The notes under the pieces are model-generated. The model was given only the letters and a program-made list of their open reading frames with translations. It was not told the DNA's origin and ran no database searches. The position numbers and the translations under genes were made by a program. From Desulfomonile tiedjei (GTDB lineage Bacteria > Desulfobacterota > Desulfomonilia > Desulfomonilales > Desulfomonilaceae), in NCBI GenBank assembly GCA_016218715.1, contig JACRDG010000106.1, positions 1 to 64,000 on the forward strand: 64,000 nucleotides of DNA. The letters run 5' to 3'. Shown in pieces: positions 7,885 to 21,217 of the stretch. Every line of letters begins with the position of its first letter. The first letter of the stretch is position 1.

Positions 7885-9171
7885 CTACCCTTCTTCGGGC
7901 GGCTTTCCGTGAATCCTCATCCCCAACAGGAACCTCCGAAGCAGGTCGAGGGCTTGCATGGCCGCAAGGGTGCGGACCCATTCGCGGGTTCCCGGGAGGA
8001 GAAACCCTCTCGTGAGGGTCTCATCAGGTGTGGCAAGGCCAAGGAAAAAGGTCCCGACCGGCTTCTCGGGGGTGCCTCCGTCAGGCCCGGCTATTCCGGT
8101 CACTGCAACCGCCAGATCCGCGTGCGCGGCCCTTCGAGCGCCCTCGGCCATTTCCGCGGCGCATTGGTGAGAGACCGCACCGAGTCCCCGGATCGTATCC
8201 GGTGAGACGCCGAGCAAGTCGATCTTCATGTCGTTAGAGTAGCTCACCACAGACCCGAGAAATGTCTTCGAGCTGCCGGCGACGCGGGTGAGCATTTCGC
8301 CGATCATCCCACCAGTGATTGACTCCGCAAGCGCGAGGGTCATCTGCCGCGCTTCCAGGAGCTCCAACACGACCTGCTCCATGGACCGGCCGTCACGGGA
8401 GATGATGTTCTCGGGCAGGCGCTCCTTAAGCACCGCCTCCTTGGCTGCGAGCTTCTCTTCGGCCTCTTGAGGCGTCGCCGCGGCAACGTCTATTCTCAAC
8501 CTGATGATCGGAAATCGGGGCAGAAAAGCGAGGTGGTAGTCTTCCTCGTCGTGAGCGACGTCGCCGAGGATTTCTCCCAGCTTCGATTCCGAGAGACCGT
8601 ACACGCGGAGGGTCCGGTTGATGAAAACCTTGTCCGACGCGCCAAGGCGTTCCCGGATCGCAGGAATCCCGCGTTCGCGAAGCATTCTGACCAGCTCCCG
8701 CGGGACCCCAGGAAAGAAGAGCGCGATGCTGCCTTCCCGTTCGATCAGGAAACCCGGAGCGGTCCCGTAGTCGTTCGGAATCGGCACCGCGGTTTCCGGG
8801 AAGAATGCCTGCTTGGCGTTGGTCGGCGACATGGGGCGGCTCCACTGGAGGAAGCGCTCCTCGATCCGCGCCAACTGTTCGGGGTCGGATTTCAGCGGAA
8901 CCCCCAGGAAGGCGCCAACCGCCTCTGCCGTCTTATCGTCTTCGGTCGGGCCCAGACCACCCGAAACTATCACTACCCGAGCGCGGTCCAGCGCGATGCG
9001 TAAAGCATCCCCTATGAACCCGAGGTCATCGGGGACCGACGACATCCCTTTGACGAGAATCCCGGCCGAACGCAGTTCCCGGGATATGGTTTCGCGGTTC
9101 GTGTCCGTGATGACGCCATTGATGATCTCGTTTCCGATGGTAAGTATCCAAGCCTCCGGCAGATTGCCCAT
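7885..9171 (-). CDS. cinA: CinA-family protein (MoaB-like domain plus nicotinamide-nucleotide amidase-like domain)
   Basis: The 428-residue product has the two-domain CinA layout. Residues about 8-175 are a molybdopterin-binding-like (MoaB/Mog) domain with IGNEIINGVITDTN and SGGLGPTEDD. Residues about 260-415 are the PncC amidohydrolase-type domain with AESITGGMIGEMLT, GSVVSYSNDMK and VTGIAGPDGGTPEKPVGT. Family members salvage nicotinamide mononucleotide by deamidation or hydrolyse ADP-ribose-type pyrophosphates. The gene starts one base after the polA stop on the same strand, so the two are very probably co-transcribed and translationally coupled. Length is normal for the full-length form. 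Confidence 0.93.
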   Translation of the reverse strand: MGNLPEAWILTIGNEIINGVITDTNRETISRELRSAGILVKGMSSVPDDLGFIGDALRIALDRARVVIVSGGLGPTEDDKTAEAVGAFLGVPLKSDPEQLARIEERFLQWSRPMSPTNAKQAFFPETAVPIPNDYGTAPGFLIEREGSIALFFPGVPRELVRMLRERGIPAIRERLGASDKVFINRTLRVYGLSESKLGEILGDVAHDEEDYHLAFLPRFPIIRLRIDVAAATPQEAEEKLAAKEAVLKERLPENIISRDGRSMEQVVLELLEARQMTLALAESITGGMIGEMLTRVAGSSKTFLGSVVSYSNDMKIDLLGVSPDTIRGLGAVSHQCAAEMAEGARRAAHADLAVAVTGIAGPDGGTPEKPVGTFFLGLATPDETLTRGFLLPGTREWVRTLAAMQALDLLRRFLLGMRIHGKPPEEG

Positions 9172-9172
9172 G

Positions 9173-11836
9173 TCAGTGTGCCTCGCCCCAGTTCTTGCCC
9201 ATGGCCACTTCCACGACCAACGGCACGCTCAGGGGGTAAACCCCCTCCATCTCCTTCTTCAACAGGGCCCCAGCCGCCTGCGCGGCTTCATCCTTTACCT
9301 CGAGGATCAGTTCGTCATGAACCTGCAGAATCATCCTTCCCGGGATGCCCGCAGCCTTCAGCGCATGGTGGACCCGGATCATGGCCAGTTTCATGAGATC
9401 CGCCGCGGTCCCCTGAATGGGGGTGTTGATGGCCATGCGCCTTGCGGCCTGCTGCGCGATGCGGTTGGGACTATTCAGGTCAGGGAGGAAGCGCTTGCGT
9501 CCCAGTAACGTGGTGACGAAACCGTCCTTCGCTGCTTTCACCGGCAACTCGTCCATGAATCTCTTCACTCCGGAGTAGGTCCGATAGTACTCCTCGAGAT
9601 ACTGCTTGGCGAGCTTCATTCCCACGTTGAGCTGGCCTGCGAGGTTGTACGGTCCCATGCCGTAGATGATCCCGAAATTGATCACTTTGGCCCTGCGCCG
9701 CATGTCCGGGGTTACCTGCGCGGGAGAGCCGCCGAACATCCCCACCGCGGTGATCGCGTGGATGTCCTCTCCACGGGTAAACGCGTCGCTGAGGCGCTGG
9801 TCTCCGGAGATATGCGCGACGACCCGCAACTCGATTTGCGAGTAATCCGCGGCCACGAACGTGTAACCGTCTTCCGGCACGAACGCTGCCCGGATCTTGC
9901 GTCCTTCCAGCGTCCTCACGGGTATGTTCTGCAGGTTGGGGTCAGAGGAGGAGAGCCGCCCGGTCGCAGCCACCGCCTGATTGTACGACGTGTGGATCCG
10001 TCCGGTCGCCGGATGCACCAGCGAGGTGAGCGCGTCCACATAGGTTGACTTGAGCTTGAAGATCGATCGGTAGTCGAGGATCTTTCGCGGGAGCGGATGC
10101 TGCAGTGCCAGTTGTTCCAGCACATCCAGGGAGGTCGACAGCCCGGTTTTGGTCTTCTTTCCGGATTTCAAGCCGAGCCGTTCGAAGAGAATTTCGGACA
10201 GTTGCTTCGGCGAGTTGATGTTGAAACATTCACCGGCAAGCGCGTAGATCTCCGTTTCCGTTTTCGCCAGCGTAGCGCCGAATTCCTCGGAGAGCTTGTT
10301 GAGATACTCGGTGTCGATACGGACACCAGCGATCTCCATGTCTGCCAGGACCGGAATCAGCGGCAGCTCGACCTTTCTATACAGATCGTCCAATCCCTCC
10401 TTCTCGACCCGCGGGCAGAGGATCTCGGCGACTTTGAACGCCACGTCCGCATCTTCGCACGCGTATTCAGTGGCCTCAGAGATGTCTACCTCACTGAACA
10501 GGATCTGGGTCTTGCCCGTTCCGATAAGCTCCTTGATGTGGATGGTGCGGTGCTCCAGGAAGATCTCAGCCAAATCGTCCAGGGAATGTCCGCGTCTCGA
10601 GGGATCGAGCAGATAGGAAGCGAGCATGGTGTCGCATGCGATGCCTCGGATCTCCACTCCTTCTCGCTGGAAAACGATGAGATCGTACTTGATGTTCTGA
10701 CCGATCTTTTCGATGGATTCGTCTTCCAGGACCTGTCGGAGTGCTTCCAGCACATCCTTTTTCCCAAGCTGAGGGCCCTTCACGTGCCCCACGGGAATGT
10801 AGCATGCCTGTCCGTCCTCGCAGCAGAGCGATATCCCGACCAACTCCGCCCGAACCGGCTGCTCTGAGGTGGTCTCCGTGTCCACAGACAGTTTCCCGAC
10901 ATCCTTAATGCGTTTTACCCACTTCAGCAGTTCAGCCATGTCCGTGACGGCACGGTAACCCGAATAGTCGAGGCTTCGTTCGGCGGGAAGGTCAGACAGG
11001 AGCCTCTTGAATTCCATCTCTTTGAAGATCTCTCTCAGCTTGGCCGAATCGTAATCCGTCGGTGCCAGGTCCTCCAATCGTCTGTCGAGAGGGACTCGGT
11101 CATCGAGGCGCACCAATTCGCGGCTGAGAAAAGCCTGGTCTCTGTTGGCAGCGAGGTTCTCCTTCATCTTCTTCTGGGTTATCTGTTCCAGGCCTTCATA
11201 TACCCCTTCAAGGGAACCGAACTGGTCGATAAGCTTTGCGGCAGTCTTCTCACCCACGCCCGGCACCCCGGGAATGTTGTCAGAGGTGTCTCCCATCAAC
11301 GCGAGAAAGTCGAGTATTCTCTCCGGGGGCACACCAAACTTCTTCTTCACCCCCTCAGGATCGTAAACCGTGTCCCGTTGCGGGTCCCACATTACGACCC
11401 CTTCTCCGACGAGCTGGGTAAGATCCTTGTCCGCGGACACGACAATCACGGACCATCCATGTTCCCGAGCCTCGCGCGTGATGGTGGCAATGATGTCGTC
11501 AGCCTCGAAACCCTCAAGCCAGAGCGATGGGAGGCTGTACGCGTCCACGATCTTGTGGATCCACGGGATCTGCAGCCGCAAGTCATCGGGCATGGAAGGG
11601 CGGTTGGCTTTGTACGCCTCATACTTCTCATGCCGGAAGGTTGGACCCTTCGCGTCGAACACGACGGCAATGTGCTCCGGGCTCTTGTCCTTCAGAGTTT
11701 TTACGATCATGTTCGTGAAGCCGAAGACCGCTCCCGTCGGAAACCCTTTGGAATTGGAGAGCCCTCCCGTTGCATGGTACGCCCGGTGAATGTACGAGCT
11801 GCCGTCAATGAGGTAGATTTCCTGTTTCCTGGTCAT
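9173..11836 (-). CDS. polA: DNA polymerase I
   Basis: The 887-residue product carries all three PolI activities in order. The 5'-3' exonuclease domain (YLIDGSSYIHRAYH, FEADDIIATI) spans about 1-290. The 3'-5' exonuclease domain spans about 310-480 with its metal residues visible in VDTETTS, GQNIKYDL and YACEDADVAF. The polymerase domain has motif A VAADYSQIELR, motif B RRRAKVINFGIIYGM and motif C LQVHDELILEV. It fills gaps and removes RNA primers in replication and repair. The proofreading residues appear intact, unlike in some PolI proteins. The ATG at 11836 follows GCGAGG by seven bases. It is the first gene of a two-gene unit with cinA. Confidence 0.97.
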   Translation of the reverse strand: MTRKQEIYLIDGSSYIHRAYHATGGLSNSKGFPTGAVFGFTNMIVKTLKDKSPEHIAVVFDAKGPTFRHEKYEAYKANRPSMPDDLRLQIPWIHKIVDAYSLPSLWLEGFEADDIIATITREAREHGWSVIVVSADKDLTQLVGEGVVMWDPQRDTVYDPEGVKKKFGVPPERILDFLALMGDTSDNIPGVPGVGEKTAAKLIDQFGSLEGVYEGLEQITQKKMKENLAANRDQAFLSRELVRLDDRVPLDRRLEDLAPTDYDSAKLREIFKEMEFKRLLSDLPAERSLDYSGYRAVTDMAELLKWVKRIKDVGKLSVDTETTSEQPVRAELVGISLCCEDGQACYIPVGHVKGPQLGKKDVLEALRQVLEDESIEKIGQNIKYDLIVFQREGVEIRGIACDTMLASYLLDPSRRGHSLDDLAEIFLEHRTIHIKELIGTGKTQILFSEVDISEATEYACEDADVAFKVAEILCPRVEKEGLDDLYRKVELPLIPVLADMEIAGVRIDTEYLNKLSEEFGATLAKTETEIYALAGECFNINSPKQLSEILFERLGLKSGKKTKTGLSTSLDVLEQLALQHPLPRKILDYRSIFKLKSTYVDALTSLVHPATGRIHTSYNQAVAATGRLSSSDPNLQNIPVRTLEGRKIRAAFVPEDGYTFVAADYSQIELRVVAHISGDQRLSDAFTRGEDIHAITAVGMFGGSPAQVTPDMRRRAKVINFGIIYGMGPYNLAGQLNVGMKLAKQYLEEYYRTYSGVKRFMDELPVKAAKDGFVTTLLGRKRFLPDLNSPNRIAQQAARRMAINTPIQGTAADLMKLAMIRVHHALKAAGIPGRMILQVHDELILEVKDEAAQAAGALLKKEMEGVYPLSVPLVVEVAMGKNWGEAH

Positions 11837-11977: not shown

Positions 11978-13210
11978 TCACTTGTGTGTGGGCCATGCCT
12001 TGATTTTTTCCAAATAGGCGTCCGGCAGACCCCAGAATGTGGCGGCTGTAAGAATCTGTTGCTTGTACTGGGCTGAAGGCCAGACATCCTTTCGGCCTCC
12101 TCCGCTGCGTCCGGCCACGTAGATCCAAGCCTGGACGGACTTTCTGTCTCTCAAGGTATGAACCTCCACTTTCCGATCCTGTCGGTGATATCCCGAGGAA
12201 CTAGCCGCTCTCCGATCGAGCGCCTTGAGAATCTCCGCGTCCGCTTTGAGGAGCACTCCCCACACCGAGCTGCCCGTACGAGGCACCAAATTCACGATGC
12301 CGCCGCCTCTTGACTCGGAATAGAAGTTCCAGAGGAAGTCGTATCCATCGAGCCTGGCAGCGGTCCCCTCCAATCCGGGGTCCGAGCGCAGGCCTGTCCC
12401 TTTCAACAAGGTGCGCAGGACGCTGTAATTCATGTCTGCCCCGTACAGGAAGATGGGCGTGGTGTTGTCGGAGGAGCTGGGAGTGGCAGTCGCGGTGGGC
12501 TGGGTCGGTTTCTTGTCCGGCACTGGGGTGGTCTGATGAGTCCGTGCTGCCAGCGTCTCACCCCCTCGTCTCTGCGCCGCAGGCGTCGAAACCGGGGGTT
12601 TCCTGGAGGGTTCTTCAACCACCGGCTGTTTTGATTCCGCACCTGCAGCAAGATGCACTTCCTTGGTCGGTTTGATGGACCTGCAGGACATCCCCGGTTC
12701 CGCGGATGCGAGATCGTCCGCGAGTTTGCGTTTACCGACCTTTTTCACAACGAGGAACTGCTCCAGTTTGTCGCGTGGTTGGCCCCAGACGTACTGCTTC
12801 AGGTCCAAAGCGGCACCGGCATCTTCGTACAGGGTAATCCACCATTCATCCGCCTTCTTGTCATAACAGATCTTGACCCCGACCGTCTTGGGAGTCTTGG
12901 CGACCAATTCCCTGGCCATACGTTCTATAGCTTGGTCCTCGGTCTCATTGGACGCGGAGTTTTCATCGTTATGGGAGGTTTCGCCGGTCTTGGTGGATGT
13001 GGCGGGCTCGGAAGCTTTGGAAGTCTTCTTCTTGCCATCCTGTCCGGCCTGTTCCCCCTGCGCTTTTGCGCTCTTTCCGGGCGGCTGATCGACAGCCCTG
13101 GCAGCTTCCTTGGTCAAGGCTACGCAACCGCACCAGCACAGTACCGAGAGGATTACTGTCCCCAGAATCACGCCGTCTCTTAACGATTCCTTTGCCGTAT
13201 TGCCCCGCAT
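11978..13210 (-). CDS. membrane-anchored protein with degenerate gamma-glutamylcyclotransferase-like domain
   Basis: The 410-residue product starts with a hydrophobic segment (GVILGTVILSVLCWCGC) that could be a signal anchor or atypical lipoprotein signal. A low-complexity charged linker follows, then a small domain (about 95-180, with YDKKADEWWITLYED) and a second Pro/Thr/Gln-rich linker. The last 160 residues resemble the gamma-glutamylcyclotransferase/AIG2 fold: IFLYGADMNYSVLR, a glycine-rich stretch (SRGGGIVNLVPRTGSSVWGV) and LKALDRRAASSSGYHRQ. In active enzymes the LD-x-x-E-G motif supplies the catalytic Glu, and here that place reads LDRRAA. Catalysis is therefore doubtful. I chose ATG 13210 by the GAGAG site and the position of the hydrophobic segment; a GTG at 13294 would add 28 polar residues. 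Confidence 0.55.
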   Translation of the reverse strand: MRGNTAKESLRDGVILGTVILSVLCWCGCVALTKEAARAVDQPPGKSAKAQGEQAGQDGKKKTSKASEPATSTKTGETSHNDENSASNETEDQAIERMARELVAKTPKTVGVKICYDKKADEWWITLYEDAGAALDLKQYVWGQPRDKLEQFLVVKKVGKRKLADDLASAEPGMSCRSIKPTKEVHLAAGAESKQPVVEEPSRKPPVSTPAAQRRGGETLAARTHQTTPVPDKKPTQPTATATPSSSDNTTPIFLYGADMNYSVLRTLLKGTGLRSDPGLEGTAARLDGYDFLWNFYSESRGGGIVNLVPRTGSSVWGVLLKADAEILKALDRRAASSSGYHRQDRKVEVHTLRDRKSVQAWIYVAGRSGGGRKDVWPSAQYKQQILTAATFWGLPDAYLEKIKAWPTHK

Positions 13211-13420
13211 CTGGCTCTCGACCTGTGCAGTAGTGTCCTGCCGGGATGGTTCTCCGTCCGTGCAATCTGAGGAGCCGTCGATCGCTCGGCTCACATGGGT
13301 GATGCCAGAACTATCAGAAAATGTAAAGAGAACAAATCCCTATACGTTGAGATTCATAAGTTGGTTCGTTGTCTTCCGCCGTGCGACGGTGAAGGAGGCG
13401 GGGGAGCTGGGGGAGTGTTC

Positions 13421-13494: not shown

Positions 13495-14421
13495 CTATTT
13501 CTCTGCTGCCCCTGCCTGCAGTTCTTCCTCGGCCTTTTTGGCGGCCGCTGCAGCCTTCTTGGCAGCCTGATCCGCCTTGATCTCCTCGACAGCTTTCGCC
13601 TGTCGTTCCGAGTCAAGGTAGCGGAAGATCAACTGCCGGCTGCACGCCCAAACACAGGCTTTGGCCATGTCTTCATCGAATTTCTCATAGTCGATCTCGA
13701 TGCGGTCTTTGACCATGTTGACCACGTCTTTGGCTTTCCGCGTGCAAGCCCCGCAGTGGACGCAGCCGGCCTTGCACACACTCGACACCGCCTTGCCCGA
13801 GTCGCGGGTGCTGCACGGCACGTAACAGATTGCATCCTTGGGAAGAAGCTGCAAGACCTGCTTCGGACAGGTGGTGATGCACACGCCGCATCCGGTGCAC
13901 TTCTCAGGATCGATCACCGGCATGTTGTCCTTCATGCCTATCGCGTCGAACGGGCAAGCAGCCTCGCAGTCGCCAAAACCTATGCACGCGAAGTTGCACT
14001 CGTACGGGCCTCCAAATGCGATGGACGCAGCCTGGCACGTATCGAACCCTATGTAGTCGTGCTTCTTCTGGACGTCGCCTTCGTTGCGGGAGCACCGGAG
14101 CCGGGAGATCACCGAACTGGCCGCACCCGCGGCCTTGCCTGTGATGGCGGCCACTTGATCGGCCACCGCCTGTTTTCCAGGGGCACACTTGCTCGACGGC
14201 ACGGTAGGATCGCAGACAACCGCTTCCGCATACGATTCGCAGCCCGCGAATCCGCACGCGCCGCAGTTAGCACCGGGCAGACACGCCCGTACCGCCGATA
14301 TCTTGGGATCCACCTGTACCGCGAACCGCTTTGCCGCCCAAGCCAGGGCCAATCCGCAGGCCACTCCGAAGGTGAGGAAGAACGCTATTCCTATAGATGC
14401 CGTGACCCAAACATTTTCCAT
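13495..14421 (-). CDS. rnfB: Rnf complex iron-sulfur subunit RnfB
   Basis: The 308-residue product has one N-terminal transmembrane helix (IGIAFFLTFGVACGLALAWA). It is followed by the RnfB-specific cluster motif (NCGACGFAGC), a paired ferredoxin domain (CEAACPFDAIGM, CTGCGVCITTCP) and a further cysteine group (CKAGCVHCGACTRK). RnfB takes electrons from reduced ferredoxin on the cytoplasmic face and passes them into the Rnf complex. ATG 14421 follows GAGGTG with good spacing; an upstream in-frame start has no support. It is the last gene of the rnfCDGEAB order, the usual arrangement when RnfB is large and multi-cluster. A 118-base gap separates it from rnfA. Confidence 0.95.
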   Translation of the reverse strand: MENVWVTASIGIAFFLTFGVACGLALAWAAKRFAVQVDPKISAVRACLPGANCGACGFAGCESYAEAVVCDPTVPSSKCAPGKQAVADQVAAITGKAAGAASSVISRLRCSRNEGDVQKKHDYIGFDTCQAASIAFGGPYECNFACIGFGDCEAACPFDAIGMKDNMPVIDPEKCTGCGVCITTCPKQVLQLLPKDAICYVPCSTRDSGKAVSSVCKAGCVHCGACTRKAKDVVNMVKDRIEIDYEKFDEDMAKACVWACSRQLIFRYLDSERQAKAVEEIKADQAAKKAAAAAKKAEEELQAGAAEK

Positions 14422-14539
14422 TCGTGTAACACCTCGATAATAACCGCCGCTTTCGCCGCGGCTCCCGTTTTTCGTGTGACAGTAGTCCTGCGATCCGCCC
14501 AAGGGAGGACGCCGTCTTTACCTGTCCAACCTCCACCGG

Positions 14540-15493
14540 TTAGAAAATGGCAAGACCGGAAAAACCCAGAAAAGCCAGGGCAAAGAGGCCGGTCACAATA
14601 AACGCGATGGGGAGGCCCTGATACATCCGGGGTACCCGGCACACTTCAAGCCGCTCCCGAACGCAGGCCATGAGAAACAACGCAATTGCGAAACCTACGC
14701 CCGCGCCAAGAGCGAAAATCAGGCTCTCCAGAGATCCGTGGTCCTTGAGAGCATTGTCCAAGGGGACCGCCAGAATGATACAGTTCGTCGTGATCAGTAC
14801 GAGGTACACGCCGAGCCGCTTGAACAGATACGGGTTCACCTTCCGGAGCATCGTGTCCACAGCCTGAACGAAGATGGCCACGATGCCGATGAAGACGATG
14901 ACCTTCAAGAAGCCAAGATGGTAGGGCACAAGCACGAAGGCATTGAGCGCCCAGCACATGATCGCGCTCAGTACCATGACCACCGTGAACGTCATTCCCA
15001 TGCCGATGGCAGTCTCTTTTTTCTGGGACACACCAAAAAATATGCACAATCCGAGGTACTTTGTAAAGACGTAGTTGCTGATCAGCGCGGCCCCGATCAG
15101 CAGCGAAAACAAGATCTGCACCTCGCTCTTCTTGACCATGAAACTCCGGGAACCGATCACCTTCCCCTCGGAAACGATGTCCTTGGCCTCCACGATGTAT
15201 TCCGCGGCCTTGTTGAGCGTGTCCTTGAACCGGAGAGTCGCGGTCACCTTCCGGGGATCGAGGGATACCGATACAACCGCCATCTTGATGTCGGGATCGG
15301 GTTTCTCATAGACAGAGTAATTGGCCGGGTTCGTGGCCCAACTCTCATCGACAGGAATCCCGAAGGATATTTCGATCTCCTTGTCCTTCTTGAACGACCC
15401 AGTCCCCGGCGTACTCGCCAGGGCCGGTCCCAGGACAAAGAGCAGCAGGACAAAGGCCGCCGCCGCAGCCATCCAGAATCTGTGTATTCTCAT
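14540..15493 (-). CDS. rnfA: RnfA with an extra N-terminal secreted Ig-like domain
   Basis: RnfA is normally about 190 residues with six membrane helices. Here residues from about 127 to 317 match that (VQILFSLLIGAALISNYVFTK, then IFFGVSQKKETAIGMG, ending GFSGLAIF). Before it are a signal-like segment (FVLLLFVLGPALA) and about 100 residues resembling an SbsA/Big_5 Ig-like domain (IEISFGIPVDESWATNPANY, KVTATLRFKDTL). The frame is continuous, and ATG 15493 overlaps the rnfE stop region and follows GGAGG. Topology predicts the extra domain in the periplasm. RnfA and RnfE form the membrane core that binds a shared iron-sulfur centre. I cannot tell whether the extension is lineage-typical. Confidence 0.9.
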   Translation of the reverse strand: MRIHRFWMAAAAAFVLLLFVLGPALASTPGTGSFKKDKEIEISFGIPVDESWATNPANYSVYEKPDPDIKMAVVSVSLDPRKVTATLRFKDTLNKAAEYIVEAKDIVSEGKVIGSRSFMVKKSEVQILFSLLIGAALISNYVFTKYLGLCIFFGVSQKKETAIGMGMTFTVVMVLSAIMCWALNAFVLVPYHLGFLKVIVFIGIVAIFVQAVDTMLRKVNPYLFKRLGVYLVLITTNCIILAVPLDNALKDHGSLESLIFALGAGVGFAIALFLMACVRERLEVCRVPRMYQGLPIAFIVTGLFALAFLGFSGLAIF

Positions 15494-15494
15494 T

Positions 15495-16115
15495 TTAGTG
15501 GGCTCCTCCGGATTTGGGGATCTTGCCCGTGATCTTAAACTCCAAATAGTTGAACGTGGCCATGATGAAGCCGATAACGAAAAAACCGCCGGTCGGCAGA
15601 ATCATGATCAGCAGCGGCTCGAACCCAAGGACGTCGAAGCCGTAGAGCTTTCCTGCTCCGAACAACTCACGGATTGCGCCGGTAATCACCAGACCGAACG
15701 TGAAGCCTATCCCCATGCCCAACCCGTCATAGAAGGACGGCACAAACGGCTCCTTCGAGGCGAAAAGTTCCAGACGGGATATGATGATCGCGAAGACCAC
15801 GATGAGCTTCACGAAAAGGGCCACCTGCTTGTACGCCTCAGGCGACACCACCGGCAGGATCATGTCGATCACACTGACCCACGTCGCAATTATCAGCACG
15901 TAAGCCGGAATCCTGATCCGCGGGTGAATGAACGACCGGAAGATCGCTACCGTACAGCTCGAGAACACCTGAACGAACACCACCGCGATACCCAGGAGAA
16001 GACCGTTCTTCACCGACGTGGTCACGGCCACCGCCGGACAAAGACTCAAGGCCAGACGGAAGATCGGGTTCTCCGGGAGGAATCCGTTCCAGAGAAGTTG
16101 CAAATTCCTGTTCAC
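15495..16115 (-). CDS. rnfE: Rnf complex membrane subunit RnfE
   Basis: The 206-residue product has six predicted membrane helices, with WNGFLPENPIFRLALSLCPA near the start and the RnfE hallmarks VTTSVKNGLLLG and YDGLGMGIGFTFGL. RnfE pairs with RnfA in opposite topology to form the ion-translocating membrane core. GTG 16115 is six bases after GGAGG and is preferred over TTG 16121, which touches that site. The gene sits between rnfG (12-base gap) and rnfA (one base between stop and ATG), so translation is tightly coupled. Confidence 0.95.
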   Translation of the reverse strand: MNRNLQLLWNGFLPENPIFRLALSLCPAVAVTTSVKNGLLLGIAVVFVQVFSSCTVAIFRSFIHPRIRIPAYVLIIATWVSVIDMILPVVSPEAYKQVALFVKLIVVFAIIISRLELFASKEPFVPSFYDGLGMGIGFTFGLVITGAIRELFGAGKLYGFDVLGFEPLLIMILPTGGFFVIGFIMATFNYLEFKITGKIPKSGGAH

Positions 16116-16127
16116 ACTCAACCTCCG

Positions 16128-17060: not shown

Positions 17061-18077
17061 CTATTTGACAGCCGCTACCGGCGCGGGTTTGGGAGGTGCA
17101 AACCTCTTGGGTTTGAACCACTCGTCCAATGCCGGTGTGAGGCAATTCATCAACAGGATGGCGTAACACACCCCTTCGGGGTAGCCGCCCTTGAGACGAA
17201 TGAGAACGGTCAGGAGACCGACGCCCATGCCGAAAACGATTTGGCCGCTCTTCAGCGTGGGAGAGGTCACGTAATCCGTGCACATGTAAAAGGCCCCCAG
17301 CATGAGCCCGCCCGAGAGGACGTGCACCAGGGGATTTCCGGTGAACCACGTCTCTCCGCCGAAGATCCAGCTCAGGACCGCAACCGTGGCTATCGTCGAG
17401 ACCGGGATGTGCCACGTGATGATGCCTCTGATCATCAAGAACACGCCGCCCGCGAGCAACAGGAGCGACGACGTCTCCCCGATACAGCCGGGCCTTAGAC
17501 CGATCGCAAAGTTCTTGTAGATGACCGACAGGTCCCCGAACTTCTCCAGCAACGCGGCTAGCCCGTAATGTCTCAGCACATACAGCGGGGTCGCAGTCGA
17601 GACCGCGTCCACGCCGCCGCCGAGGTACACACCCAACGGCGATTGGGACCAATCGATCGGCGGTATCCACGCCGCGGTCATGTACACGGGAAAGGAGGCC
17701 GTGAGCAAGGCCCGCCCCACCAGAGCAGGGTTCCAGACATTGAACCCGAGGCCGCCCATGAGTTCCTTGTTGATGAAGATCGCAGCCACCGCTCCGATCA
17801 GGGGCAGCCAGTACGGCACACCCGGCGGGATCACGAAGGCCATGAGTATTCCCGTCAAGACCGCACTCCCGTCCGTGACCGACACGGGTCTCCCGAGAGC
17901 TTTCTGAGAGATCGCTTCCACGACTACACAGGAGATCACGCTGACCAGTGTGATGATCAGACTCCTGAAACCGAAAACATAGATGGACAAGAGCAGCACT
18001 GGCATCAACGTGGCAATCACCGTCCACATGATTCCGGCGGTCGTCCTCCCCAACCGTATATGGGGTGACACGGACAC
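17061..18077 (-). CDS. rnfD: Rnf complex membrane flavoprotein subunit RnfD
   Basis: The 338-residue product has about nine or ten membrane helices and conserved RnfD segments: SPHIR at the start, TDGSAVLTGILMAFVIPPG, and VWNPALVGRALL. The segment VSTATPLYVL is the expected covalent FMN attachment region (Thr in S/T-x-A-T). RnfD forms the main membrane channel path with RnfG. The start is uncertain: GTG 18077 and GTG 18071 are the only candidates before an in-frame stop, and neither has a strong ribosome site. A 194-base gap with no gene separates it from rnfC, which is wide for this operon. Confidence 0.92.
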   Translation of the reverse strand: MSVSPHIRLGRTTAGIMWTVIATLMPVLLLSIYVFGFRSLIITLVSVISCVVVEAISQKALGRPVSVTDGSAVLTGILMAFVIPPGVPYWLPLIGAVAAIFINKELMGGLGFNVWNPALVGRALLTASFPVYMTAAWIPPIDWSQSPLGVYLGGGVDAVSTATPLYVLRHYGLAALLEKFGDLSVIYKNFAIGLRPGCIGETSSLLLLAGGVFLMIRGIITWHIPVSTIATVAVLSWIFGGETWFTGNPLVHVLSGGLMLGAFYMCTDYVTSPTLKSGQIVFGMGVGLLTVLIRLKGGYPEGVCYAILLMNCLTPALDEWFKPKRFAPPKPAPVAAVK

Positions 18078-18271: not shown

Positions 18272-19597
18272 TCACCCGTGTTTCTTGACCTGTATCTTAG
18301 CCAATCTGGCGAACTGAACCAGCGGGCGCTTCGCGGGGCAGACGTAGGCGCAACACCCGCATTCGAAGCACTCGAACACGCCGAATTTCTCGGTTTGATG
18401 ACCTTTCCCCGCTTCCACGTAAATCGCCACTTCTTTGGGTTGCAGCCCCATGGGGCAGGCTTCCAGGCACCATCCGCAGTGAATGCACGGACCGTACGTG
18501 CCGGTGTCTGTCTCACTACTTGACAGGAAGAGCACTCCAGAAGACGTCTTGGTTATCGGCACGTCCAGGTTGGAAACGGCAAATCCCATCATTGGGCCAC
18601 CGGAGACGATCTTCGTCAGATCGTTCGTGGTTCCGCCGAGGTACGCCGCGACATCGCTCAACACCGTGCCGACCTTAACCTTCAAGTTGGCAGGACGCTT
18701 GATCGCGCGACCGGAGAACGTGGCCACCTTCTCGTACAGGGGCTTGTTCAGCGTGGCAGCCTCGAAGATCGCCAGGGTCGTCGATATGTTCTGCACGATG
18801 ACCCCTACGTCGAAGGGGAGCCCACCGCCGGGGACCGACCGTTGGGTCAGCGAGTAAATGAGCTGCTTCTCAGATCCCTGCGGATACTTCACCGTCATCC
18901 CTTGCACCGCGACCGTGAACTCGTCCTGCCCGGAAGCTTCCTTCGCTGCCTTGGTCATAGCGTTGATCGCGTCGGCCTTGTTCAGCTCGATGCCGATGAC
19001 TGCCTTCTTGATGCCAAGGATCTTCAGGAGGACCTTCGTTCCTTCCACCACCTTTTGCGGATGCTCCAGCATGATCCGGTGGTCGGTGGTGAGGTACGGT
19101 TCGCACTCCGCGCCGTTCAGAACCAGAGTATCCACTTTTGCGGACGGAGGCGGAGAGAGCTTCACGTGGGTCGGGAAACCGGCGCCGCCCAGCCCGACGA
19201 TCCCGGCGTCCTTGACTTTGGCCAGGAGTTGCTCCGCAGTCGTCTTCCGCCAGTCCTGGGGTTCGTAGACTCGCGGCGGTGCCGAGGGGTCCCGGTCGAT
19301 GACAATCGCATCGCACCGGACCATGGTCGGATGCGGCCGCGATTCGATGGTCTTCACGACGCCGGTGACGCTGCTGTGAATGGTCGCGCCGAGGGCCTTT
19401 TCGACCGTTGCTATGACGTCCCCTTCCTGAACCTCCTGTTTCTTCTTCACCACGGGCTTTGCCGGGGCTCCGAAATGCATCGACACGGGGATCACCACCT
19501 GCTGGGGCGGCGGCATCTCCTCGATCGCGAGATGTTCAGTGAGTTCCTTGTGTTCTGCGGGATGAACCCCGCCTCTGGGAAAAGTAGCTCCTGCCAT
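18272..19597 (-). CDS. rnfC: Rnf complex NADH-binding subunit RnfC
   Basis: The 441-residue product has an N-terminal RnfC-type barrel (FPRGGVHPAEHKELTE, then a lipoyl-like segment). Next comes the NAD/FMN-binding domain with GIVGLGGAGFPTHVKL and LVLNGAECEPYLTTDHR. Two 4Fe-4S motifs follow (CIHCGWCLEACPMG and CFECGCCAYVCPAKRP). RnfC is the cytoplasmic subunit that reduces NAD+ with electrons from ferredoxin delivered through the complex. ATG 19597 follows GAGGAAAC. It is the first gene of the operon, about 380 bases downstream of a strong promoter. Confidence 0.96.
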   Translation of the reverse strand: MAGATFPRGGVHPAEHKELTEHLAIEEMPPPQQVVIPVSMHFGAPAKPVVKKKQEVQEGDVIATVEKALGATIHSSVTGVVKTIESRPHPTMVRCDAIVIDRDPSAPPRVYEPQDWRKTTAEQLLAKVKDAGIVGLGGAGFPTHVKLSPPPSAKVDTLVLNGAECEPYLTTDHRIMLEHPQKVVEGTKVLLKILGIKKAVIGIELNKADAINAMTKAAKEASGQDEFTVAVQGMTVKYPQGSEKQLIYSLTQRSVPGGGLPFDVGVIVQNISTTLAIFEAATLNKPLYEKVATFSGRAIKRPANLKVKVGTVLSDVAAYLGGTTNDLTKIVSGGPMMGFAVSNLDVPITKTSSGVLFLSSSETDTGTYGPCIHCGWCLEACPMGLQPKEVAIYVEAGKGHQTEKFGVFECFECGCCAYVCPAKRPLVQFARLAKIQVKKHG

Positions 19598-20150
19598 GTT
19601 TCCTCTTCGTCGGATTCGCTCCCGGAGCCTTATCGGTTCCGGACGCGCAAATTTTTCGTCACGCTCCCCCGGGGAAGCACGCCTTGCATCTGGCCGATTG
19701 CGTGAATGGGATCTTCAGGGAAAAGGCCTCCACCGGGGAAGACGTCCTCGCAAAAAAGGCCACCCCCGAGCCCTTTCTCGTGAATCCCGTGCTCTTGCGG
19801 CATAAGCTCGTGAGGGAATGGCGGTTCAACCGGACGCGGCGCCCAGGTTACCCGAGGAGGGAGATCCGTCTTGGCGGCTTTTTCCGGTATCTTCGAGACG
19901 ATCGGTCAAACGGATTCAGCCGACGCTCCGCCCGAATCAGAGGCCGCACACCCTTGTGCTCAATGCCCAGTAATTCAGCGAAAAAGAATAATATTCGACG
20001 AACCCGCTGTCAAGAAAATCTTCCCGTTCCCCGCGGAATCGAGTAGAAAGAGAATCATCTTTGGTGTAATTGCGCCGGGGCCTGAATGCCGACCCCGTTT
20101 GTTGTAATTGCCAATACATTGATCGCGAGATCGTCACCGGGAGTCGAACT
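19598..20150. other. intergenic region holding the rnf leader
   Basis: This 553-base region contains the minus-strand rnf promoter at 19985-20013. About 380 bases lie between its predicted transcription start and rnfC. No convincing gene was found. The leader has a GGCCTTTTTTGCG stretch (minus strand, about 19754-19766) that could belong to an attenuator, but I did not find a perfect stem for it. Confidence 0.5.
19985..20013 (-). promoter_or_regulatory. sigma-70-type promoter of the rnf operon
   Basis: On the minus strand TTGACA (20008-20013) and TATTCT (19985-19990) are separated by exactly 17 bases. The -35 is a perfect match and the -10 has four of six bases. No other good pair lies closer to rnfC, so a transcript starting near 19977 would have an unusually long 5' leader. 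Confidence 0.7.
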
Positions 20151-20438
20151 ATGCCGCAAGATTTTCAGAAGGCTATCATGCAGCGGATGGAGCAGCCGGG
20201 CTGGGTGACCACCCGCGGGATCCTGCGCGATCCGACCGGGCAAGCCGATCCGGACGACTACGTCGCTGTGGAAGAGACCATGAAGGAGCTTGCCGGTCTG
20301 GGACAGATCGTCCTCTGGCGACTGATCGTCCTGGACGATGGTGTGGAAATGCTCGCCGCGGCCCGGCCGGGGCTCGAACTGGACAAGGACCTTGAACAGC
20401 GAGGCGCATGGGCTAAAGCCGAGAGATATGAGCCGTAA
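20151..20438 (+). CDS. small hypothetical protein, possibly winged-helix
   Basis: The 95-residue soluble product (MPQDFQKAIMQRMEQ...) has a helix-turn-helix-like rhythm. FQKAIMQRMEQPGWVTTRGI is followed by a second helix (YVAVEETMKELAGLGQI) and a short beta pair (VLWRLIVLDDGVEMLAA), which would suit a winged-helix fold. No family was recognised. ATG 20151 is supported by GGGAG seven bases upstream; the frame is also open from 20070 without a site. It stands alone between the rnf promoter and the phospholipase-D-like gene, so any regulatory role is guesswork. Confidence 0.5.
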   Translation: MPQDFQKAIMQRMEQPGWVTTRGILRDPTGQADPDDYVAVEETMKELAGLGQIVLWRLIVLDDGVEMLAAARPGLELDKDLEQRGAWAKAERYEP

Positions 20439-20695: not shown

Positions 20696-21217
20696 ATGAC
20701 CCCCCTATTCGATCGCGACATCTACGAGCGGTTCACGCGGACCCATCTGGTTCAGGCCCGCCGATTCGTCTGGATCGCCACCGCGAACATCAAAGCGACC
20801 GGGCTCATGAATCAGGGGAGGTTCATGTCGTTCGTGGACCTCATGGCCGTGATGGTCAACCGAGGAGTGTCATTTCGGATCATCCATGCCGAGCTTCCCT
20901 CCGCTCCGTTCCGCTCACGGTACGAGCAGTTGGACACCAAAGGGCAATTGAGCGCGGGCGTCGAGTTCCTCCACTGCATCCGCATGCACGCCAAGATCTT
21001 CATCGTGGACGGCATTGTGGCCCTCGTGGGGAGCCCCAACCTCACCGGAGCCGGGATCGGAGCAAAAGGGGACACCAAGAGGAACTTCGAAACCGCGTTC
21101 CTCTTCGAAGGACCCACCGAAACCGAACCTTTCCTCGAATACTTCGACAACCTCTGGATGGGTACCCCCTGCCCCCAATGCGGCCGCCGGGACCTCTGCC
21201 CCGCACCTGCGGGGTGA
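20696..21217 (+). CDS. phospholipase-D-like protein with a single HKD motif
   Basis: The 173-residue product has one PLD catalytic motif: HAKIFIVDGIVALVGSPNLT, where His, Lys and Asp are in the H-x-K-x4-D spacing and are followed by the usual G-S-x-N. Full enzymes need two such motifs, so this would act as a homodimer like the Nuc-type nucleases. The protein ends with CPQCGRRDLC, a possible small zinc-binding knuckle. No signal peptide is present, so a cytoplasmic nuclease or phosphodiesterase is more likely than a secreted lipase. The stop codon lies in a CCCCGC-acct-GCGGGG hairpin. The methyltransferase gene converges on it. Confidence 0.75.
   Translation: MTPLFDRDIYERFTRTHLVQARRFVWIATANIKATGLMNQGRFMSFVDLMAVMVNRGVSFRIIHAELPSAPFRSRYEQLDTKGQLSAGVEFLHCIRMHAKIFIVDGIVALVGSPNLTGAGIGAKGDTKRNFETAFLFEGPTETEPFLEYFDNLWMGTPCPQCGRRDLCPAPAG

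Follow-up and report, generated by a model that had tools for sequence, protein, structure and literature searches.

On balance, we favour the view that the rnf operon in the window (the whole stretch of 64,000 nucleotides that was analysed) encodes a distinct, divergent subtype of Rnf. In this subtype, an Ig-like domain fused to RnfA would act as a docking platform or guide for an enlarged RnfG, and the intramembrane cluster would be held by three cysteines together with another ligand. The loss of a cluster cysteine from RnfE is a more important feature than the fusion of the Ig domain, on which the earlier note had concentrated, and was missed there.

RnfA/NqrE and RnfE/NqrD each contribute two cysteines that coordinate the intramembrane [2Fe-2S] cluster of Rnf and Nqr (PMC9588780, PMC11889175). 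The four cysteines of RnfA/E are described as invariant (PMC9588780), and mutants of the cluster cysteines in A. woodii do not grow and have lost activity (PMC11889175). The fourth of these residues, the second of RnfE (VNC motif), has given way to Phe-Ala in each of the 31 fused systems compared, while it is kept in 35/35 unfused Rnf and Nqr systems; E. coli RsxE also retains it. The alignment is free of gaps and has conserved flanks: RnfE of the fused systems reads LIV(V/A)FAII where the unfused proteins have Asn-Cys. The other three cluster cysteines are invariant in the same 31 systems, which argues for continued constraint on the RnfA/E site. Of the four cysteines that mark an Rnf, the fused system thus has three. 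Because the second RnfE cluster cysteine is missing, we file it as an Rnf variant and not as an ordinary member of the family.

The residue comparison revealed no new invariant cysteine in RnfA or RnfE of the fused systems. The FSSC motif of RnfE was considered as the source of a replacement cysteine and rejected, as it is not conserved in five of the loci (L003, L047, L048, L051 and L053). A second RnfE that supplies the missing ligand is excluded in two near-closed genomes (G005 and G301), where the fused system is the sole Rnf/Nqr A-E pair.

With one of four ligands absent throughout, the site could hold a different centre, either a mononuclear iron or a [3Fe-4S] cluster, with changed electron transfer; this would be compatible with any role of the Ig domain. 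NqrE-Cys26 and NqrD-Cys112 of V. cholerae are ligands of one and the same iron (PMC9325719), so that one iron in the fused systems would keep a single cysteine. The invariance of the three remaining cysteines speaks against such a centre, however, and the fourth ligand could equally well be something other than cysteine. We regard the exchange of the centre as rather unlikely. In the arrangement that we favour, three cysteines and another ligand hold the cluster, for example solvent or Ser26 of RnfE. This residue (a Gly-to-Ser change two positions before the kept cysteine) separates the two groups, as does Gln51. Ligation by three cysteines would shift the potential and the gating of the cluster. 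The site may thus work unlike the known cluster, the AE1 cysteine mutants of A. woodii being inactive (PMC11889175).

The operon is otherwise complete. The genes rnfC, D, G, E, A and B lie consecutively on the minus strand from 19597 to 13495, and all six subunits are present (Table 1). These are the same subunits, of the same Pfam families, as in the canonical Rnf of A. woodii, C. tetanomorphum and A. vinelandii (rnfCDGEAB or rnfABCDGE), and the gene order is that of A. woodii. As in canonical Rnf, RnfB and RnfC retain their [4Fe-4S] cysteines, and the covalent flavin motifs are intact in RnfG (TGATISS) and RnfD (STATPL). The NAD-side motifs of RnfC are retained as well. The differences from canonical Rnf are the signal and Ig domain of RnfA, an Asp for Glu substitution in the same protein, the missing RnfE cysteine and the longer RnfG. 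Na+-NQR has a homologous membrane pair, NqrD and NqrE, with the same inverted topology as the fused RnfA and RnfE. It differs in that it keeps the four cysteines, has NqrF and NqrA in place of the RnfB and RnfC chemistry, and has no Ig domain; the operon described here contains RnfB and RnfC and no NqrF in place of RnfB. The fused Rnf would act as a ferredoxin:NAD oxidoreductase that drives Na+ or H+ transport.

Table 1 Features of the fused rnf operon (positions in the window).
Feature	Position	Strand	Basis and remarks
rnfC	18272..19597	-	Pfam; NADH/FMN domain and two [4Fe-4S] motifs retained
rnfD (NQR2_RnfD_RnfE family)	17061..18077	-	Pfam 7.5e-110; flavin-site motif retained
rnfG, enlarged, 301 aa	16128..17033	-	Pfam, alignment
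rnfE	15495..16121	-	C28 (16038-16040) present; Phe110-Ala111 (15789-15794) at the second Cys site
Shine-Dalgarno-like GGAGGAG	15503..15509	-	Direct reading; nine bases upstream of the fused rnfA ATG
RnfA signal peptide, residues 1-27	15413..15493	-	Sequence and hydropathy; predicted cleavage after ALA
RnfA Ig-like (SbsC/SbsA-type) periplasmic domain, residues 28-122	15128..15412	-	AF2, Foldseek, homologue conservation; invariant PDI motif
RnfA membrane core, residues 123-317	14540..15127	-	Pfam/NCBIfam and residue comparison
RnfA cluster cysteines C150, C238	15044-15046, 14780-14782	-	Residue comparison
RnfA D213	14855-14857	-	At the presumed NqrE-E95 position; residue comparison
rnfB	13495..14427	-	Pfam; iron-sulfur cysteines retained; start taken near 14427, longest ORF from 14502

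The Asp for Glu substitution in RnfA lies at D213, which we take to be the position of NqrE-E95 in V. cholerae numbering and treat as a lead. The residue is Asp in 32/32 fused and Glu in 44/44 unfused proteins. In NQR, the cytoplasmic side is closed through a salt bridge formed by NqrE-E95 (PMC10643135; PMC7414866).

A gene for ApbE occurs once in this genome, away from the operon, and adjoins rnfB in 12 fused operons outside the family. Upstream of rnfC, genes for a 122-aa protein (20070-20438, plus strand) and a short PLD-like protein (20696-21217, plus strand) have look-alikes upstream of rnfC in another locus (L035), which suggests a neighbourhood conserved in the family. A 438-aa ORF follows downstream of rnfB (11978-13294, minus strand). 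In locus L051, a gene that by eye looks nitroreductase-like (8796-9368, plus strand) separates the fused rnfA from rnfB, and the operon is followed by complex I genes.

The fused rnfA is read from an ATG at 15493 to a stop codon at 14540-14542 on the minus strand, as 317 codons without interruption. The core of the protein matches Pfam Rnf-Nqr (2e-50) and TIGR01943 (7e-61, over residues 128-314). TIGR01943 is still the best-matching model, with a score of 205.9 bits that misses its curated cut-off of 229.3. The RnfA chains in solved structures have 190-191 residues and align only from residue 128, so about 125 N-terminal residues are extra in the fused protein. Residues 1-27 resemble a Sec signal, with MRIHR followed by a hydrophobic stretch at 8-26 (mean hydropathy 2.39) and GPALA-ST.

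The extension is probably translated from the first ATG, as supported by several features of the gene. Close to the canonical RnfA start there is a single internal ATG, Met119, which relatives do not conserve, and a Shine-Dalgarno-like site precedes the first ATG. An ATG with a purine-rich site is found at the corresponding place in 17/17 loci of the family that were inspected. Between close relatives, dN/dS is about 0.08-0.26 for the extension and 0.01-0.10 for the core; these values indicate that the Ig domain is under purifying selection. An internal start or an unexpressed extension, which the earlier note had named as the outcome that would overturn its reading, is therefore rejected on the Shine-Dalgarno site, the unconserved Met119 and the low dN/dS of the extension. 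Its claim that RnfA, a signal-like segment and an SbsA-type Ig fold share one frame is borne out by the uninterrupted ORF, the Pfam and NCBIfam matches of the core and the predicted fold.

When residues 28-122 are predicted alone with AF2, they form an all-beta, Ig-like sandwich with a mean pLDDT of 90.3. The best Foldseek matches are the Ig domains of the S-layer protein SbsC (4uic, TM-score 0.83, E 9e-7; 4uj6, E 4e-7). By sequence, the match to Pfam Big_5 stays below threshold (E 0.11; 13.6 bits against a gathering cut-off of 23.6). From the predicted model, the extra domain is an Ig fold of the SbsC/SbsA type (Big_5 type). The domain is conserved in an alignment of 25 homologues, where its PDI motif is invariant. 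The Ig domains of the S-layer proteins SbsC and Sap share this fold. RnfA differs from them in that a single domain, about 25% identical, is placed on a membrane electron-transfer subunit with no S-layer context. In its membrane part, the AF2 model of full-length RnfA is of low quality (mean pLDDT 63.8).

In the structure of A. woodii Rnf, L22, which stands at the end of RnfA TM1a, is extracellular (PMC11889175), and the N terminus of RnfA is therefore expected outside. Relatives retain a signal at the start of the fused protein, and independent evidence for export comes from seven of them (L044-L046, L054, L055, L057 and L058), in which the signal ends in a lipobox (LFLTGC, LLLGC, VFSGC, LLAGC or LIGGC). 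The type of signal switches while the domain that follows it stays, which argues that the Ig domain is exported. Both observations agree with the periplasmic location proposed in the earlier note. Only a few residues separate the end of the Ig domain from TM1. Judging by the A. woodii structure (PMC11889175), this should place the domain at the entrance of the RnfA/E cavity, the docking site of RnfG.

It is conceivable that the extension only aids the insertion or stability of RnfA, as a signal peptide with an inert spacer that secures the N-out topology. Ordinary RnfA adopts this orientation with no signal, so the addition of one could assist insertion; the Ig domain also evolves faster than the RnfA core. 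Yet a domain of about 95 residues with an invariant PDI motif, and with the low dN/dS given above across orders, is more than a spacer, and the extension goes together with the changes in RnfE and RnfG. We consider this function unlikely and favour a role of the Ig domain in guiding RnfG.

RnfG is about 300 residues long in the fused systems (301 here). It contains an extra periplasmic segment after the TM helix (approximately residues 43-148) and an insert that precedes the TGAT flavinylation motif, while the aligned RnfG of canonical operons is without these additions. The extra segment was examined as a possible duplicate of the flavin-binding domain and rejected, as hhalign gave only an 11-column match with a probability of 9. 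In addition, the Thr of the ETPGLG motif is changed to Asp (D187 here) in 22/22 fused systems, while 13/13 unfused proteins have Thr. In NqrC, the ETPGLG region reportedly lines the flavin ring (PMC12174285), and the RnfG residue would correspond to it. RnfG of locus L044 (4269-5183, plus strand) reads TASTISS in place of TGATISS, and the protein may be poorly or not flavinylated in this lineage.

A docking function of the Ig domain could also be directed at an external periplasmic redox partner, such as a cytochrome, hydrogenase or dehydrogenase, through which Rnf would exchange electrons with the periplasm. The domain faces the periplasm, its invariant PDI motif resembles a contact surface, and in many sulfate reducers Rnf is connected to a decahaem cytochrome (PMC4841214). 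However, in the neighbourhoods inspected, neither a cytochrome gene nor that of another partner consistently accompanies the fused operons, and the retained NAD-side motifs of RnfC do not fit the idea well. Moreover, the enlargement of RnfG points to a partner inside the complex. This makes an external partner quite improbable. Because RnfG is enlarged in exactly these systems and no partner gene is consistently linked, RnfG is the more likely partner of the Ig domain on the present sequence comparison.

The fusion was sought in relatives, as the earlier note had suggested, and recurs in 18/18 genomes of the family (Desulfomonilaceae) examined as well as in several further lineages of the phylum, other orders among them. 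It is present in 13 of 395 sampled genomes of the phylum, 8 of which lie outside the family, and fused RnfA loci also occur under the names Desulfobacterales and Desulfovibrionaceae. A profile of the domain found no match other than RnfA in the 395 phylum genomes. In a GTDB-wide scan with short peptides, all matches were named as this phylum or as former Deltaproteobacteria. An assembly or frame artefact that joins rnfA to an unrelated upstream domain has nothing in its favour beyond the rarity of the fusion. It can be dismissed with near certainty, since the fusion recurs in many independent assemblies, some of them near-closed.

In the studied Desulfomonilaceae genome, no Rnf complex other than the fused one was found. 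Some genomes (G141, G264 and G304) contain a canonical Rnf alongside the fused one. Three genomes of the family (G002, G007 and G008) have a second RnfA/NqrE-like gene, 32-35% identical and without the extension.

The cores of the fused RnfA proteins form one clade (SH-aLRT 100), whose stem measures 1.9 substitutions per site. As the co-occurring changes all fall on this one long branch, they represent one evolutionary event and not a repeated correlation. The co-occurrence supports a common remodelling, in which the order of cause and effect is not derivable from a single branch.

The changes in the catalytic sites that are specific to the subtype appear to fall on one step, the transfer from the RnfA/E cluster to the RnfG flavin at the periplasmic face. 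In the proposed mechanism, RnfA would be exported N-terminus first by its signal peptide, which is of the signal peptidase I type here and of the lipoprotein type in some relatives. The Ig domain would then be left on the outer end of TM helix 1, beside the cavity in which the electron passes from the RnfA/E cluster to RnfG. There it could dock or guide the larger RnfG head and tune its swing between RnfA/E and RnfD. We suggest more tentatively that the whole represents a re-engineered Rnf, with a three-cysteine RnfA/E centre that has an open position or a non-cysteine ligand on one iron, an Ig domain in cis and an enlarged RnfG, and with electron transfer and ion coupling unlike those of any known Rnf or Nqr.

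In the literature searched, largely outside the subscription journals, we found no description of such an RnfA fusion, and from its sequence the system looks like a previously undescribed variant of Rnf. A clade that lacks one of the "invariant" cluster cysteines and has outer domains on both proteins flanking the same electron step constitutes a natural experiment. It bears on the coupling of electron and ion transfer in Rnf, and on the question of which iron-sulfur ligands are really needed. In this group of sulfate-reducer-like bacteria, a well-known energy-conserving machine has apparently been remodelled.
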